From NCBI RefSeq assembly GCF_018499875.1, contig NZ_JAHBAY010000005.1, positions 310,001 to 374,000 on the forward strand: a DNA stretch of 64,000 bases. The letters run 5' to 3'. The position numbers and the translations under genes are program-made. The stretch is from Kineosporia corallincola. GTDB taxonomy: Bacteria > Actinomycetota > Actinomycetes > Actinomycetales > Kineosporiaceae. Below are positions 8,771 through 15,209 of this stretch, one piece after another (positions within the stretch are counted from its first letter, which is position 1; each line of letters opens with the position of its first letter). A model generated the notes under the pieces. That model was not told where the DNA came from. It searched no databases and was given only the letters and a program-made list of their open reading frames with translations.

Positions 8771-9657
8771 CGGGACCCGGCCAGGCACCACTCCAGCACC
8801 GCCATCGCGCTGTACAGCTTGTTGCCGGCCTGCTCGAAGGCGATGCTGTGCGGGCCGTCCAGCACCCCGGCGGTCACCTCCTCGCCACGGTGAGCCGGAA
8901 GGTCGTGCAGGAAAACGGCTTCCGGGCTTCCGTCCCACAGCTGCGGGCCCACCCGGAACGGCTCGAACAGCCGCCGCCAGTGCGGGTCGGGCTTGCTGGT
9001 GCCGGTGGTCTGCCAGCGGGTGGTGTACACCACGTCGTACCCCGTGGCCAGGTCGTGCAGGTCGTGTCGCTGGGTGACACCGTCACCGGTGACCAGCTCG
9101 TCCGGCACCCCGTAGCCGGGTGGGGTGCGCAGGTCGAGCAGGGTGCCGGGGAACCGGGGCAGGGCCCGGGCCAGGGCGGCCGCGGTGTTGTTGCCCTCGC
9201 CCAGGTAGAGCACGCGCAGCCCGTCGATCCGGCCGAAATGCCGCAGCAGCGTGGTCAGGTCGGTCAGGGCCTGGGTCGGGTGCTCCTCGGTGGTCATCGC
9301 GTTCACCACGCCCATCCGGTGCTGCCCGGTCCAGGCGCGCAGCTCGGCGGCCGGGGCCGCGGTGCGGGCGACCAGGCCGTCGAGCATGCGGGAGAACACC
9401 TGCCCGGTGTCGTCCAGCGTCTCGCCGGTGTTGGTCTGGAGGTCGTCGGGTCCGTAGGCGACGATCCGCGCGCCCAGCCGCAGTGCGCCGCTGGAGAACG
9501 CGGTGCGGGTGCGGGTGGACGTCTTCCGGAAGTAGATGCCCACCACCGCCTCGTCCAGGGCCCGGGACCGCTCGCCGGCGGCGAAGGCGGCGCCCCGTTC
9601 CACGATCTGCCGCAGCTGATCGTCGGTCAGATCGGCGATCGAGATCAGGTGACGCAT
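8767..9657 (-). CDS. Ornithine/aspartate-carbamoyltransferase-like enzyme, probable Dap carbamoyltransferase
   Basis: 296 residues with the full transcarbamoylase fold. The carbamoyl-phosphate motif S-T-R-T-R is at 47-51 and H-P-T-Q at 126-129. A C-terminal H-D-L-P at 251-254 replaces the H-C-L-P of ornithine carbamoyltransferases, so the amino-acid side differs from the arginine enzyme. Since the operon also encodes diaminopropionate synthesis, carbamoylation of Dap to beta-ureidoalanine (as proposed for VioL-like proteins of tuberactinomycins) is the best guess. A carbamoyl transfer to the peptide or to another amino acid cannot be excluded. The start overlaps the NRPS stop (TGATG), showing translational coupling. 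Enzyme class is sure, substrate inferred. Confidence 0.85.
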   Translation of the reverse strand: MRHLISIADLTDDQLRQIVERGAAFAAGERSRALDEAVVGIYFRKTSTRTRTAFSSGALRLGARIVAYGPDDLQTNTGETLDDTGQVFSRMLDGLVARTAAPAAELRAWTGQHRMGVVNAMTTEEHPTQALTDLTTLLRHFGRIDGLRVLYLGEGNNTAAALARALPRFPGTLLDLRTPPGYGVPDELVTGDGVTQRHDLHDLATGYDVVYTTRWQTTGTSKPDPHWRRLFEPFRVGPQLWDGSPEAVFLHDLPAHRGEEVTAGVLDGPHSIAFEQAGNKLYSAMAVLEWCLAGSR

Positions 9658-12600
9658 CAGGAGTTTCCTTCCTCCGGCGGGTTCACGTCCGGCATCCCGG
9701 CCTGGGCCAGCAGGTCGGACTCGGACATCTGCTCGATCTCCTCGCGGATGCCGGCCTCGATCCCGGCGGCCAGCTCCGCCACGGTGGGCCGCTCGAACAC
9801 CGACCGGATCGACAGCTGCACCCCGAAGGCGCTCTTCAGCCCGGAGATCAGCTGCACCGCGCGGATCGAGTGACCACCGGCCGCGAAGAACCCGGTGTGC
9901 ACGTCCACGTCGCGCTCGTCGGTGCCGAGCACGCCGGCCCAGACCCGCGCGACCCGTTCCTCCACCGGGTTGCGCGGTGCCGTGCGCCCGGCCCCCGGCG
10001 TCTGCGGCGCGGGCAGGGCGCGGCGGTCCACCTTGCCGTTGGCGTTCAGCGGGATCGAGGTCAGCGGCACGAACACGGACGGCACCAGGTAGGCGGGCAG
10101 CCGCTGCGCGCAGTAGCCGGCCAGATCGGCCAGATCGGCCGGATCGCCCTCGGCCCCGCCGGCCGGGACGTAGTAGGCCAGCAGCCGCCGGTCGGCGGGG
10201 GACCCGTCCGCGACCACCACGGCGTCCACAATTTCGGGGTTCTCCAGCAGCCAGGCGCGGATCTCGCCGGGTTCCACCCGGTGGCCGCGGATCTTCACCT
10301 GATCGTCGATCCGGCCGAGAAAGCCGACCGCGCCGCCGTCGAGCACCCGGGCCAGGTCACCGGTGCGGTACATCCGGGCGCCGGGCGGCCCCCACGGGTC
10401 GGGCAGGAACCGCTCGGCGGTCAGGTCGGGACGTCCCGCGTAGCCCCGGGCCACTCCGGTGCCGCCGACCCACAGCTCGCCCGGCACCCCGATCGGGGCC
10501 CGCCGGCCGGCCGGGTCGAGCACATGCATGGTCAGGTTCGGCAGCGGCCGGCCGATCGGCACCACGTCCGCGGTCACCCGCCCGGCGACCGGCTGCACGC
10601 AGGTGCCGACCGAGGCCTCGGTGGGCCCGTACTCGTTGATCAGCCGGCCGTCGCCGAGCACGTTGCGCCAGCGCTGGGCCAGCGGCCCGGACAGCGCCTC
10701 ACCGGCCACCACGACCACCTCGGCCAGGGCGTCCATCCGGGCCGGGGTGAGCTGGTGCTCCAGCAGTTCCAGGTGCCCCGGGGTGAGTTTCACGAAACTG
10801 AACCGCCCGGCTCCGGCCAGCGCCGCGCCCAGCGCGTCGAGACCGGCGTGCTGCGGGTACATCCACACCCGCTGGCCGGTGACCAGCGGCGCCCACAGGT
10901 TGGGCACCACCAGGTCGAAGGCCACCGAGGAGAACACCGGCGCCCCGCCCACGCCCTGGCCGGCCAGCTCGCGGGCGGCCCAGTGCACGTGGTTGGCCAG
11001 GCCGCGGTGGGTGACGGTCACGCCCTTGGGCCGGCCGGTCGAGCCGGAGGTGAAGATGACATAGGCCGGCCGGTCCAGGTCGGGCCGCTGCGGCAGGACG
11101 GTGTCCGGGCGGCCGGCGATCTCCTGCCGGTCCGCGCCGTCCAGCACGACGGTGCGCAGGTTTGACGAGAACCGTTCGGCGTAGCCGGAACTCGTCACCG
11201 CGACGGTGCTGCCCGCGGTGTCCGTCATGTCGGCGATCCGGTCGGCCGGGTAGGACGGGTCGAGCGGCACGTAGGCGGCCCCGGCCTTCCAGACGCCGAG
11301 CAGGGTGGCGATCAGGTCGGGACCGCGCTCCAGCAGCACCGCGACCGTGGCCTCGGTGTTCTCCGAGATGCCGAGATCCCGCAGGTGGTGGGCGATCCGG
11401 TTGCTGTGCGCCTCCAGCTCCGCGTAGGTCACCGACAGCAGCCCGGCCGTGACCGCCACGGCCCGCGGGCTGATCGCGCCGGCCGCCCGCACGTCCTCGT
11501 GCACGCAGGTGAGCGGGAGCGGTCCCGGGTTGGCCGACCAGCCCTCCAGCTGCCGCCGCTCACCGGCCGGCAGCAGATCGAGCGCGGACAGCCGGCTGCC
11601 CGGTTCGCCGACCAGGGCGTGCAGCAGCCGCACGTAGCGGTCGGCCAGGCGGCGCACCGTGGTCTCGTCGAAAAGGGCCGTGGCGTACTCGAAGGCGGCG
11701 CTCAGCCCGCCCTGAGCGTCCCGCCGCACGAACAGCGTCAGGTCGGTCTTCGACACCTTCCAGGCCTGCTGGAACGCGGCGGTCGCCAGCGGGTCACCGG
11801 TCATCGTGGTCGCGCCCTCCTCCTGGAGGTCGAACGCCACCTGGTACAGCGGGGTGCGGGACAGGTCACGGGCCGGGCGCAGCTCGGTGACCAGCCGCTC
11901 GAACGGCACCGCCTGGTGGGCGAGGGCGTCCCCGCAGGTCTTCTTCACCCGGGCCAGGGCGGTCAGCACGTCCGGGTCGTCGTCGAGCCGGCAGCGCAGC
12001 ACCACCGAGTTCAGGAAGAACCCGACGACGCCGTCCAGCTCCCGCCGGTCGCGGCCGGCCACCGGGGTGCCGATCACCACGTCCCCGGAACGGGTGTGCC
12101 GGGCCAGCAGCGTAGCCAGCGCGGTGAGCAGGATCATGAACGGGGTGACGCCGTGGGCCCGGCCGAACTCGCCGACGGCCCGGGCCAGCGGCGCCGGGAT
12201 GCGCACCTCCACCCCGGCTCCCGCCGCGTCCCGCCGGGCCGGCCGGGGGCGGTCGGTGAGCAGCTCGGTCGGCTCCGCCCCGGCCAGTTCCTCACGCCAG
12301 AAGGCCAGGTCACCGGCGAGCGCCTGGTCGGTGGTGCTGTCGCGACGCCACACCGCGTAGTCGGCGTACTGCACCGGCAGGTCCGGCAGCACCGCCTCGC
12401 GACCGCCGAGCCCGGACGAGACCAGCTGCCGCAGTTCACGTTCCAGCACGGCGGTGGACCAGCCGTCGGAGGCGATATGGTGGATGGTGACCAGCAGCAC
12501 CGGTTCCTGGCCGGGCAGCAGCACCAGCAGGGCGCGCCACAGCGGGCCCTCGGCCAGGTCGAAGCCGCGGGCGAACTGCTCGGCGAACAGCCCGCTCAGG

Positions 12601-15101
12601 GCCGCGGCCGAGGCCTGCTCCACCCGCAGCTCGACCTCGCCGGGGGCCACCACGACCTGCCCGGGCTCGCCGTCGCGCACCGGGTAGCGGGTACGCAGCG
12701 ACTCGTGCCGGGCCTCGATCCGGTGCAGGGCCCGGCGCACGATCTGCTCGTCGGCGCCGCCGGGCAGGCGCAGGAACAGCGGGGCCACCCACTCCGGGCT
12801 GCCCGGGTGCATGCTGTCGAGGAACCACAGCCGGTGCTGGCCGGGCGAGAGCGGCAGCGGGCCGGTGCGCGGAACCGGTCGCGGGCCTTGGTCTTCCGGC
12901 ATGCTGTGGCCGGGGACGGTGGCGGTGCGCGGAACCGGTTGCGGACCTTGGTCTTCCGGCATGCTGTGGCCGGGGACGGTGGCGGTGCTGCTGCCGATTC
13001 CGGTGTCGGTGCTGTTGCCTGTGCCGGTACCGATCGCGGCCATCTCACCGGTCACGGCCGCCTTCCCGGTCACGGCCGCCTTCCCGGTCACGGCCGCCTT
13101 CCCGATCGCGGCCATATCGCCGATCGCGGCCGTCTCCCCGGTCAGGGCCGCCTCGCCGATCAGGGCCGCCTGGCCGGCCAGGGTGGAGGTGCCGAACAGG
13201 CCGGGCAGGTCCACACTTCCGCAGCGGGCCCGCAACCGGGTGGCCAGGCGGGTGACGTCGAGGGAGGTGGCGCCGAGGGCGAAGAAGTCGTCGTCCACCC
13301 CGATCTCGTCCACGTTCAGCAGCTCGCGCCAGATCCCGGCGACCATCTGCTCGGCGGGGGTGCGCGGCGGCACCACCGCCCGGCCGACCGGCTCGCGCGG
13401 GGCCAGGGCGGCCAGCGCCCGACGATCGGTCTTGCCGCTGGGGTTCAGCGGGAACTCCTCCAGCCGCACGAACCGGGCCGGCACCATCACCTCGGGCAGG
13501 CGCTCGCGCAGGAACGCACGCACCGAGGTGTCGCCGGGCACGGCCGGCCCGGCCAGGTAGCCGGTCAGCCGCTTGCCCGGCCCGCGCTCCTCCACCAGCA
13601 CGGCGGCGGAACGGATTCCGGGATGCGCCAGCAGTGCGGACTCCACCTCGCCGGGCTCGATCCGGACGCCGTTGATCTTCACCTGACCGTCCAGGCGGCC
13701 GAGGAACTCCAGGCTGCCGTCCTGCCGCCAGCGGGCCCGGTCGCCGGTGCGGTACAGCCGAGATCCGGCCGCGCCGTAGGGGTCGGGCACGAACCGGTCG
13801 GCGGTCAGCGCGGCCTGATTCAGGTATCCGCGGCCCAGACCGGCCCCGCCCACGTGCACCTCGCCCGGCACCCCGACCGGCACCGGCTCGCCGCCCGGCT
13901 CCAGCAGCAGGATGCGCAGGTTGTCGAGCGGCCGGCCGATCGGGACCGGGCCCTCCTGCTGGTCTTTCGCGTAGTGGTGGGCCGTGACGTCGATCGAGCA
14001 CTCGGTCGGGCCGTAGGTGTTCCAGACCTGCGCCGCGCCGGAACCGCCCAGGGCCCGGGCCAACTCGGCGTCCAGCGGCTCACCGGCCGAGAACACCAGC
14101 CGCAGCGAGTCGCAGCCGCTCCAGCCCGGCTCGGCCACCAGCCGCCGCAGCACCGAGGGGACGCCCTGGAGCACGGTGATGTCGTGCCCGGTGATCGCGT
14201 CGACCAGGAGCGCCGGGTCACGCTCGGCCCCGTGCGGCGCCAGCACCACCGTTCCACCGGCGACGAGCGGGGCGAAGAACTCCCAGACGGCCGCGTCGAA
14301 GCCGGTGGAGGTCTTCTGGAGCACCCGGTCGGCCGAGCCCAGTCCGTGCGTGCGCACGGTCCACAGCACCCGGTTGGCGATGCCGCCGTGCCCGATCACG
14401 ATGCCCTTGGGCCGGCCGGTCGACCCGGACGTGTACATCACGTAGGCCGCGTCGTCGGCACTCAGCTCCAGCAGCGGGCCGGGCTGCCCGGCCTGCGGGG
14501 AGGCATCTTTCGGGAAGGCGGCCTGCGAGGAGACGGCCTGTGCTGGGGCGGCCTGTGCCGAGACGGCCTGTGCCGGGGCGGCCTGTGCCGGGGCGGCCTG
14601 CGCCGGGGCGGCCTGCGGGGTGGTCAGGCCGTCGAGCAGCAGCACCCGGGCGCCCAGCCCGTGGGCCCGGCCGGCCAGGTCGTCGCGGCTGATCACCACC
14701 CGGGTCCCGGTGTCGGCGACCATCCACTCCAGCCGCTCGTCCGGGTGGGCCGGGTCGAGGGGCACGTACGCCGCCCCGGCCCACCAGACCCCGAGCAGGG
14801 CGGCCACCAGATCGGGGTGCCGGTGCAGGTGCACGCCGACCGGGTCACCGCGTCGCACACCGAGTCTCCGCAGTTCACCGGCCACCGCCCCGGCCCGGGC
14901 ACCGAGCGCGGCGTAACCGGTGACCTGCTCGCCCGACACGACCGCCGGAGCGTCCGGGTCCCGCCGGATCCGGGCGGCCACCAGGTCGGGCAGCAGGTCG
15001 GGCAGCAACTCCTGCGCCCGGCCGGGCGTCGTGCCGGGTACCTCTGAACGCTCGCTCCCGCTGACCGCCGGCTCCGGCGATGTGGTGCCCAGGGGTTTCA
15101 T
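9657..15101 (-). CDS. Two-module NRPS, A-T-C-A-T, without thioesterase
   Basis: A 1,814-residue synthetase. A1 spans about 30-555 (A3 motif Y-T-S-G-S-T-G-R-P-K-G near 224, N-T-Y-G-P-T-E, Y-R-T-G-D-R). T1 has its carrier Ser near 611 (G-A-T-S-L-D). A repeat-filled linker (633-757) is followed by a C domain with H-H-I-A-S-D-G-W-S near 875, A2 (A3 motif near 1352; N-E-Y-G-P-T-E; Y-R-T-G-D-L) and T2 (G-G-H-S-I near 1741). There is no N-terminal C domain and no TE, so module 1 loads the first residue and the product must leave by another protein. By-eye specificity residues: A1 D-A-W-S-F-A-T-I-D, A2 D-L-P-G-V-A-E-V-G; the latter's tail recalls Asn/Asp-type pockets. The start at ATG 15101 has AGAGGA 8 bp upstream. 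Confidence 0.95.
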   Translation of the reverse strand: MKPLGTTSPEPAVSGSERSEVPGTTPGRAQELLPDLLPDLVAARIRRDPDAPAVVSGEQVTGYAALGARAGAVAGELRRLGVRRGDPVGVHLHRHPDLVAALLGVWWAGAAYVPLDPAHPDERLEWMVADTGTRVVISRDDLAGRAHGLGARVLLLDGLTTPQAAPAQAAPAQAAPAQAVSAQAAPAQAVSSQAAFPKDASPQAGQPGPLLELSADDAAYVMYTSGSTGRPKGIVIGHGGIANRVLWTVRTHGLGSADRVLQKTSTGFDAAVWEFFAPLVAGGTVVLAPHGAERDPALLVDAITGHDITVLQGVPSVLRRLVAEPGWSGCDSLRLVFSAGEPLDAELARALGGSGAAQVWNTYGPTECSIDVTAHHYAKDQQEGPVPIGRPLDNLRILLLEPGGEPVPVGVPGEVHVGGAGLGRGYLNQAALTADRFVPDPYGAAGSRLYRTGDRARWRQDGSLEFLGRLDGQVKINGVRIEPGEVESALLAHPGIRSAAVLVEERGPGKRLTGYLAGPAVPGDTSVRAFLRERLPEVMVPARFVRLEEFPLNPSGKTDRRALAALAPREPVGRAVVPPRTPAEQMVAGIWRELLNVDEIGVDDDFFALGATSLDVTRLATRLRARCGSVDLPGLFGTSTLAGQAALIGEAALTGETAAIGDMAAIGKAAVTGKAAVTGKAAVTGEMAAIGTGTGNSTDTGIGSSTATVPGHSMPEDQGPQPVPRTATVPGHSMPEDQGPRPVPRTGPLPLSPGQHRLWFLDSMHPGSPEWVAPLFLRLPGGADEQIVRRALHRIEARHESLRTRYPVRDGEPGQVVVAPGEVELRVEQASAAALSGLFAEQFARGFDLAEGPLWRALLVLLPGQEPVLLVTIHHIASDGWSTAVLERELRQLVSSGLGGREAVLPDLPVQYADYAVWRRDSTTDQALAGDLAFWREELAGAEPTELLTDRPRPARRDAAGAGVEVRIPAPLARAVGEFGRAHGVTPFMILLTALATLLARHTRSGDVVIGTPVAGRDRRELDGVVGFFLNSVVLRCRLDDDPDVLTALARVKKTCGDALAHQAVPFERLVTELRPARDLSRTPLYQVAFDLQEEGATTMTGDPLATAAFQQAWKVSKTDLTLFVRRDAQGGLSAAFEYATALFDETTVRRLADRYVRLLHALVGEPGSRLSALDLLPAGERRQLEGWSANPGPLPLTCVHEDVRAAGAISPRAVAVTAGLLSVTYAELEAHSNRIAHHLRDLGISENTEATVAVLLERGPDLIATLLGVWKAGAAYVPLDPSYPADRIADMTDTAGSTVAVTSSGYAERFSSNLRTVVLDGADRQEIAGRPDTVLPQRPDLDRPAYVIFTSGSTGRPKGVTVTHRGLANHVHWAARELAGQGVGGAPVFSSVAFDLVVPNLWAPLVTGQRVWMYPQHAGLDALGAALAGAGRFSFVKLTPGHLELLEHQLTPARMDALAEVVVVAGEALSGPLAQRWRNVLGDGRLINEYGPTEASVGTCVQPVAGRVTADVVPIGRPLPNLTMHVLDPAGRRAPIGVPGELWVGGTGVARGYAGRPDLTAERFLPDPWGPPGARMYRTGDLARVLDGGAVGFLGRIDDQVKIRGHRVEPGEIRAWLLENPEIVDAVVVADGSPADRRLLAYYVPAGGAEGDPADLADLAGYCAQRLPAYLVPSVFVPLTSIPLNANGKVDRRALPAPQTPGAGRTAPRNPVEERVARVWAGVLGTDERDVDVHTGFFAAGGHSIRAVQLISGLKSAFGVQLSIRSVFERPTVAELAAGIEAGIREEIEQMSESDLLAQAGMPDVNPPEEGNS
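12863..12982. repeat. 60-bp direct repeat inside the NRPS linker
   Basis: Two adjacent 60-bp units (12863-12922, 12923-12982) differ at only two positions and keep the reading frame. They encode a 20-residue Pro-rich unit of the type T-A-T-V-P-G-H-S-M-P-E-D-Q-G-P between T1 and C. Near-identity at the DNA level points to a recent duplication. Confidence 0.92.
13024..13167. repeat. 18-bp in-frame repeat array in the NRPS linker
   Basis: Three identical 18-bp units (13048-13065, 13066-13083, 13084-13101; CCGGTCACGGCCGCCTTC) are flanked by degenerate copies. They encode hexapeptides of the form A-A-V-T-G-K and A-A-I-G-D-M in the linker after T1. Confidence 0.88.
14521..14625. repeat. 15-bp in-frame repeat array in NRPS domain A1
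   Basis: Six consecutive 15-bp units (14521-14610) plus a partial one follow the consensus GCCTGTGCCGGGGCG. They encode A-P-A-Q-A / V-S-A-Q-A pentapeptides inserted in A1 before motif A3. Confidence 0.92.
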
Positions 15102-15209
15102 GACATGTCCTCTCACGGCCTTCGCGGGCCTTCGCGGTGCGGCGGGTCGGTACAGCGGGTCGATACGGCTCGGAGCGGCTCACCAGCGGGTCGCTGCCGG
15201 CCGAGTCGC

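Follow-up and report, generated by a model that had tools for sequence, protein, structure and literature searches.

The nonribosomal peptide synthetase NRPS1 of Kineosporia corallincola, which on first reading seemed to lack both a start and an end, is most likely an ordinary initiating synthetase served by a discrete starting condensation (C) domain. The original prediction of a synthetase without release is mostly an effect of the edge of the window, i.e., of the 64,000-nucleotide stretch of DNA that was analysed (C5:310001-374000 of the 8.2-Mb, 53-contig genome; w denotes positions in the window). Observed domains, gene order, conservation and residues lead us to a proposal on catalysis and substrates that we regard as probable, in which three proteins would form a six-module line with an acyl start by the free C domain, release in cis by a PF00144 domain, editing by a type II thioesterase (TEII), and a supply of β-ureidoalanine.

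Domain Organization of NRPS1 and Genes Beyond the Window Edge

Pfam recognizes two A, one C, and two T domains in NRPS1, with an A domain first; no C domain precedes A1, and neither a thioesterase (TE) nor a reductase domain follows T2, the match of which ends 35 amino acyl residues before the C-terminus (Table 1). The A-T-C-A-T order, the missing initiating C domain and the missing terminal release domain that had been predicted are thus confirmed by Pfam. The gene predicted at 9657-15101 is real as well, although 15101 belongs to an ATG five codons after the GTG start at 15116.

In contrast, the claim that the cluster holds neither a thioesterase nor a reductase gene is an artefact because the window edge, 9.7 kb from NRPS1, cuts the cluster. 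Genes on the same strand continue outside, and they include those for an A-T-PF00144 protein (NRPS3) and for a PF00975 thioesterase with the serine motif GHSMG. A thioesterase elsewhere that acts on T2 had been named as an argument against the predicted lack of release; by location such a candidate exists, and its action on T2 is putative. NRPS2 consists of three C-A-T modules plus a final C domain and opens with a C domain, without a loading module. Three of its four C domains, those before A4, A5, and A6, carry CHxxxEGWS in place of HHxxxDG and keep the second His; this variant occurs in three Kineosporia species and in cluster B of genome G720 (see below), and cluster A of G720 has CHxxxDGWS once. 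No E domain was recognized in the assembly line, and reading the protein termini for docking domains gave no clear pair; both points count against the proposal.

Table 1. Features of the cluster and of NRPS1 (w, window position; C5, contig position).
Feature	Position	Strand	Remarks
TEII, PF00975	C5:293104-293757 (match)	minus	156.7 bits
FabA-like dehydratase gene	C5:293859-294803	minus	
NRPS3, A-T-PF00144	C5:294800-297787	minus	995 aa; PF00501, PF00550, PF00144
NRPS2	C5:297760-308943	minus	3727 aa; PF00668 x4, PF00501 x3, PF00550 x3
MbtH	C5:308874-309077	minus	66% identical to G720 MbtH
FtsX-type ABC permease	C5:309234-312491 (in window, w1-2491)	minus	crosses window edge towards MbtH, NRPS2, NRPS3, thioesterase
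Histidine kinase, response regulator, DUF4097 gene	w2573-5378	minus	conserved in three species
TauD-family dioxygenase 1	w5448-6431	minus	
TauD-family dioxygenase 2	w6445-7473	minus	
MFS exporter	w7454-8938	minus	
Carbamoyltransferase	w8767-9657	minus	STRTR and HPTQ kept; proposed conversion of Dap to β-ureidoalanine
NRPS1, A1-T1-C2-A2-T2	w9657-15116	minus	ORF from GTG, 1819 aa; Pfam
T2 of NRPS1	w9765-9959	minus	PF00550; residues 1720-1784, nothing recognizable beyond
C2 of NRPS1	w11547-12857	minus	PF00668; HHIASDG
A1 core of NRPS1	w13821-14975	minus	PF00501; residues 48-432
SbnB-type enzyme	w15292-16323	minus	2,3-diaminopropionate (Dap) route; TIGR03944 377 bits, cut-off 326.9
SbnA-type enzyme	w16281-17291	minus	Dap route; TIGR03945 411.6 bits, cut-off 349.95
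Free-standing C domain	w17288-18655	minus	PF00668; HHIASDA; conserved in three species; proposed chain-starting acyltransferase
ACP	w18661-18906	minus	81 aa
KAS III	w18949-19899	minus	Cys114/His242/Asn272 present
SDR	w19943-20773	minus	ketoreductase-like; YSASK
DUF1203 gene	w20846-21397	minus	
SARP-type regulator	w21461-24004	minus	last conserved gene at its end
Rhamnogalacturonan lyase gene	w24489-26801	minus	

Conservation of the Cluster

The gene order from the FabA-like dehydratase to the SARP-type regulator is identical in two other Kineosporia species (G003 and G001), where the thioesterase is present as well. Identities to NRPS1, NRPS2, and NRPS3 are 71, 77, and 74% for G003 and 75, 76, and 74% for G001, the best NRPS1 piece of the latter covering 1089 of 1819 residues. 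Outside the FabA-SARP block and the thioesterase gene the Kineosporia stretches have no genes in common except weak ABC-ATPase matches, and the edges are sharp. The rhamnogalacturonan lyase gene just past the SARP-type regulator marks the cluster edge, since it is absent from the two other stretches. A DUF1203 gene lies within the cluster and is conserved in all three species. The free C domain is found in 3/6 genomes of the genus at E≤1e-60 and in 3/13 genomes of the family at 1e-80.

Genome G720, a member of another family, harbors two related clusters, A and B. Cluster B has the compact order SDR, two TauD, KAS III, free C domain, SbnA, SbnB, NRPS1, carbamoyltransferase, MFS, ABC, NRPS2, and NRPS3; neither a FabA-like nor a TEII match was found in it, and consequently the acyl-supply set varies among the clusters, a point against the proposal, and release in cluster B cannot depend on a linked TEII. 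In cluster A, the genes for NRPS1 and NRPS2 stand back to back, meeting at base 2174673, and this adjacency is the best evidence that NRPS1 would feed NRPS2. In NRPS2 of cluster A, PF00144 directly follows the last T domain and so occupies the usual place of a TE. Cluster A also encodes TEII (41%), TauD1, MFS, carbamoyltransferase, SbnB, SbnA, and the free C domain, and its acyl genes code for a FAAL-like AMP ligase and two acyl-CoA dehydrogenases. The presence of a second NRPS and of the A-T-PF00144 protein, the conserved order and the back-to-back genes of cluster A together identify NRPS1 as an initiator.

Probable Chain Initiation and Precursor Supply

The free C domain is accompanied by ACP and KAS III genes here and in the two other Kineosporia species and by KAS III in cluster B of G720. 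Because it adjoins acyl-supply genes (KAS III, or the FAAL-like ligase in cluster A), its setting is one of chain initiation, and judged by this context it most likely starts the chain. Its sequence does not assign the starter type: the nearest PDB chains are internal PCP-C didomains, CDA-C1 ranks far lower, and a starter class receives no support. Release by the free C domain or by the ACP/KAS III system, as originally suggested, was set aside in view of this gene context and of the other release candidates past the window edge. Four bases are shared by the genes for SbnA and the free C domain, an arrangement typical of translational coupling.

Both the SbnA- and the SbnB-type enzyme exceed their NCBIfam cut-offs and are assigned to the Dap route. 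The neighboring carbamoyltransferase retains the motifs for carbamoyl phosphate and lacks those for ornithine (the SMG loop is absent, and HCLP reads HDLP), and with 204.6 against a TIGR00658 cut-off of 280.85 it was rejected as an ornithine carbamoyltransferase.

The PF00144 Domain of NRPS3

The PF00144 match covers residues 665-979 of NRPS3 (135-139.8 bits), and its motifs SISK and GHAG are kept, SISK in all three Kineosporia species. The nearest PDB chain is the Streptomyces R61 DD-peptidase (1sde, 1cef; 8.3e-18, 67.7 bits); SurE (6ksu; 2.1e-7, 33.4 bits) and ClbP (3o3v; 9.3e-7) are among the other relatives. On alignment to R61, SxxK and H-x-G match, whereas the Tyr of YSN is replaced without a gap by Lys, YSN corresponding to K-[ASN]-G. 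Thus, the domain has the SxxK serine-lysine pair of PBP-type thioesterases but lacks the catalytic Tyr of YxN-type class C and R61 enzymes. As the R61-type base Tyr is Lys, release activity cannot be assumed.

A search of 392 genomes of the genus of G720 with a five-row profile at 1e-40 recovered the fused domain in 28 genomes. Of the 33 sites, 30 lie within open frames of at least 900 aa. According to Pfam, the arrangement is A-T-PF00144 at 26/33 sites (22 of the 392 genomes); at four others (L081, L082, L083, and L085) PF00144 directly follows a C domain with no A-T in between, the Tyr being retained at three of the four. The remaining three sites lie at contig ends (L061, L074) or are partial (L086). 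When the three Kineosporia sites are included (n=36), the base position is occupied by Lys in 30, Tyr in 3, Val in 1, and Ser in 1, and is unaligned in 1; Lys is found at 24/26 A-T-PF00144 sites, and all three Tyr cases are of the C-PF00144 type. Ser and Lys of SxxK as well as H-x-G are present at 35/35 readable sites. Tyr is present in 11/11 stand-alone relatives examined, a count that leaves out L038-L046 and three matches without loci. At the readable sites, 0-44 aa follow the fused domain and no lipocalin domain is found there, compared with 140 aa past the matched part in 6ksu.

In the tree, the Lys sites form one group (97/89) with the Val and Ser sites nested inside; the separation of all fused from stand-alone domains has little support (89/47), and the position of some long branches is uncertain. 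In the wider order the domain occurs in 5/396 genomes, namely the three Kineosporia and two others in which it sits in a short stand-alone frame. In a sample of the phylum it occurs in 23/396 genomes, and among the 21 loci checked NRPS motifs adjoin it only in G000 and G720.

Pocket Codes and Predicted Substrates

Alignment to GrsA, using a fragment identical to 1amu, gives the codes DAWQFATID for A1, DLPKVAEVG for A2, A4, and A5, DFWNIGMVH for A3, and DIAQITLVW for A6, with all nine pocket positions of each code identical in the three Kineosporia species. The codes of cluster B of G720 are DALQFATVD, DLPKVAEVG, DMWNSGLVH, DLPKVAEVG twice, and DVAQVTLVW. Codes read previously by eye, DAWSFATID for A1 and DLPGVAEVG for A2, have 8/9 residues right each but are wrong at position 278, where the same +4 shift had put S and G in place of Q (A1) and K (A2). 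Different pocket residues after alignment, which would speak against the earlier reading, thus appear in both domains at this position only.

A1, said earlier to resemble no code that could be named with certainty, does have a nearest code in the Gln signature DAWQFGLINK (PMC3992020), 6/9 positions being common with DAWQFGLIN, and may be called Gln-like. A3 has the code predicted for Thr, whose signature is given as DFWNIGMVHK, and A6 has D, I, Q, L, and W in common with the Gly signature DILQVGLIWK (PMC4169593). For A2, the ending noted earlier as similar to Asn codes agrees with DLPKVAEVG. The pattern DLxK..EVG resembles Asn codes and is just as commonly read as Asn, which counts against an assignment to ureidoalanine. 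β-Ureidoalanine is isosteric with Gln and similar to Asn, and the Asn-like A2 perhaps selects this residue.

Genomic association bears on this choice. Where the terminal code is DLPKV[AG]EVG, a carbamoyltransferase is encoded within 60 kb at 14/14 sites, a count in which two codes were read in part and two sites share one gene; the corresponding figures are 0/2 for DLPKVASVG and 0/3 for DAWQ[CF]ATID. Among the fused sites in the genus of G720, a carbamoyltransferase lies within 60 kb at 22/33 and an over-cut-off SbnA at 21/33, the chance of an SbnA within ±60 kb being about 2% per site by a hand estimate (46 sites in ~265 Mb). The underlying distance table holds the 46 over-cut-off sites plus eight weaker ones chosen by hand on the same or related contigs, and only the 21/33 is unbiased. 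The link between code and carbamoyltransferase would favor β-ureidoalanine at A2, A4, and A5 over A1, and, the sites being related, it is a lead, not proof.

Proposed Assembly Line and Alternatives

The complete line would read A1-T1-C-A2-T2 (NRPS1), C-A3-T3-C-A4-T4-C-A5-T5-C (NRPS2), and A6-T6-PF00144 (NRPS3). An acyl group built by KAS III, SDR, ACP, and the FabA-like dehydratase would be moved by the free C domain from acyl-ACP onto the residue held on T1, and NRPS1 would add residue 2 and pass the product to NRPS2. After addition of Thr and two DLPKVAEVG residues, the last C domain of NRPS2 would couple the chain with the residue that A6 has loaded on T6 of NRPS3. The SISK serine of the fused domain would then take over the chain, to be released by water or an inner nucleophile, with the discrete TEII serving as editor. 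SbnA, SbnB, and the carbamoyltransferase would make the β-ureidoalanine for A2, A4, and A5. The head-to-tail macrolactamization that marks the SurE family would be precluded by an acylated N-terminus, a point against the proposal; what then remains is hydrolysis, a lactone formed on Thr, or the attack of a ureido or amino group.

It is unlikely, though worth considering, that TEII is the true releasing enzyme and that the PF00144 domain became inert or structural after loss of its Tyr. The Tyr to Lys exchange is in line with this, as is the retention of TEII with its GHSMG motif in the three Kineosporia clusters and, at 41%, in cluster A of G720, but cluster B has no TEII match, and the usual role of discrete PF00975 proteins encoded in NRPS clusters is editing. 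Moreover, an inert domain would not need SxxK and H-x-G, yet both are kept at every readable site. That the fused domain is a ClbP-like prodrug peptidase seems scarcely credible: such peptidases do occur in NRPS clusters and ClbP is among the PDB relatives, but the domain is fused C-terminally to a T domain at 26/33 sites by Pfam, and the at most 44 aa that follow leave no room for membrane helices, which ClbP possesses. This candidate was set aside for both reasons.

A joint line of NRPS1 and NRPS2 has to reckon with the 10.7 kb of transporter and regulator genes between them, which count against it. This gap, together with the presence of a free C domain, would suit a self-contained dipeptide synthetase released by that domain or by KAS III, the neighboring NRPS genes then belonging to another cluster. 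We consider this very unlikely in view of the gene order common to three Kineosporia genomes, the back-to-back arrangement in cluster A of G720, and the start of NRPS2 with a C domain instead of a loading module.

Relation to Known Systems

A release domain of the PBP type in cis is as such not new, as the biffamycin paper (2026, PMC13285481) indicates: it describes one cis-encoded SurE domain in BifB, structurally similar to SurE, calls it unique, and reports that its deletion abolished the product. According to this description, a PBP-type domain ends the last NRPS module, as in NRPS3, and a protein A1-PCP1-C-A2-PCP2 opens the line, as NRPS1 does here. Set against the published description of BifB, the NRPS3 domain differs in being closer to R61 than to SurE, in leaving no room for a lipocalin domain, in the exchange of Tyr for Lys, and in its linkage to genes for Dap and carbamoyl transfer. 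SurE, Ulm16, PenA, WolJ, and FlkO, covered in a 2024 review (PMC11735501), are serine enzymes of the β-lactamase/PBP superfamily that act on NRPS-bound peptides, as proposed for the NRPS3 domain. However, they are described as stand-alone, trans-acting enzymes with a lipocalin-like second domain, whereas the NRPS3 domain is fused in cis and has none. Membership of the NRPS3 domain in the SurE family was rejected for the missing lipocalin domain, the cis fusion to A-T and the ranking of R61 above SurE, all read from sequence. The same review states that characterized PBP-type TEs mostly call for a D residue or Gly at the C-terminus, which, no E domain having been recognized here, counts against our proposal.

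Among the open-access papers searched (as distinct from subscription papers), there was no report of the present cluster or of the codes DLPKVAEVG and DIAQITLVW, nor of cis-fused PBP-type domains as a family, biffamycin being the only case, nor of a lipocalin-free cis family with Lys for Tyr linked to Dap and carbamoyl genes. In the biosynthesis of viomycin/capreomycin and zwittermicin, SbnA/SbnB-type enzymes supply Dap, and a carbamoyltransferase yields a ureido residue. The present cluster resembles these systems in its Dap and ureido genes, as judged from descriptions and not sequences, and they are not known to have acyl-starting genes or a PF00144 release domain.

The chances seem about even that actinomycetes possess an undescribed family of release domains with PBP/β-lactamase fold, attached in cis behind the final T domain, free of lipocalin, with Ser-Lys and a second Lys for Tyr, and associated with Dap-derived (carbamoylated) peptides, in which the ureido nitrogen of a terminal β-ureidoalanine might attack the acyl-enzyme to form a C-terminal dihydrouracil ring. 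The apparently missing release step becomes a testable assembly line, and with 22/392 genomes of one genus cis-fused PBP-type domains are not a single oddity. They pose the chemical question of whether Ser-Lys-Lys can do the work of Ser-Lys-Tyr, are candidate cyclases or hydrolases acting inside a module, and, as an A-T-PF00144 end, provide a search key for the Dap/ureido peptide family. Sites L071-L073, L076, and L077, with the codes DAWQ[CF]ATID or DLPKVASVG and no carbamoyltransferase within 60 kb, may represent a kindred family of peptides in which Dap is left unmodified or converted to some other derivative.
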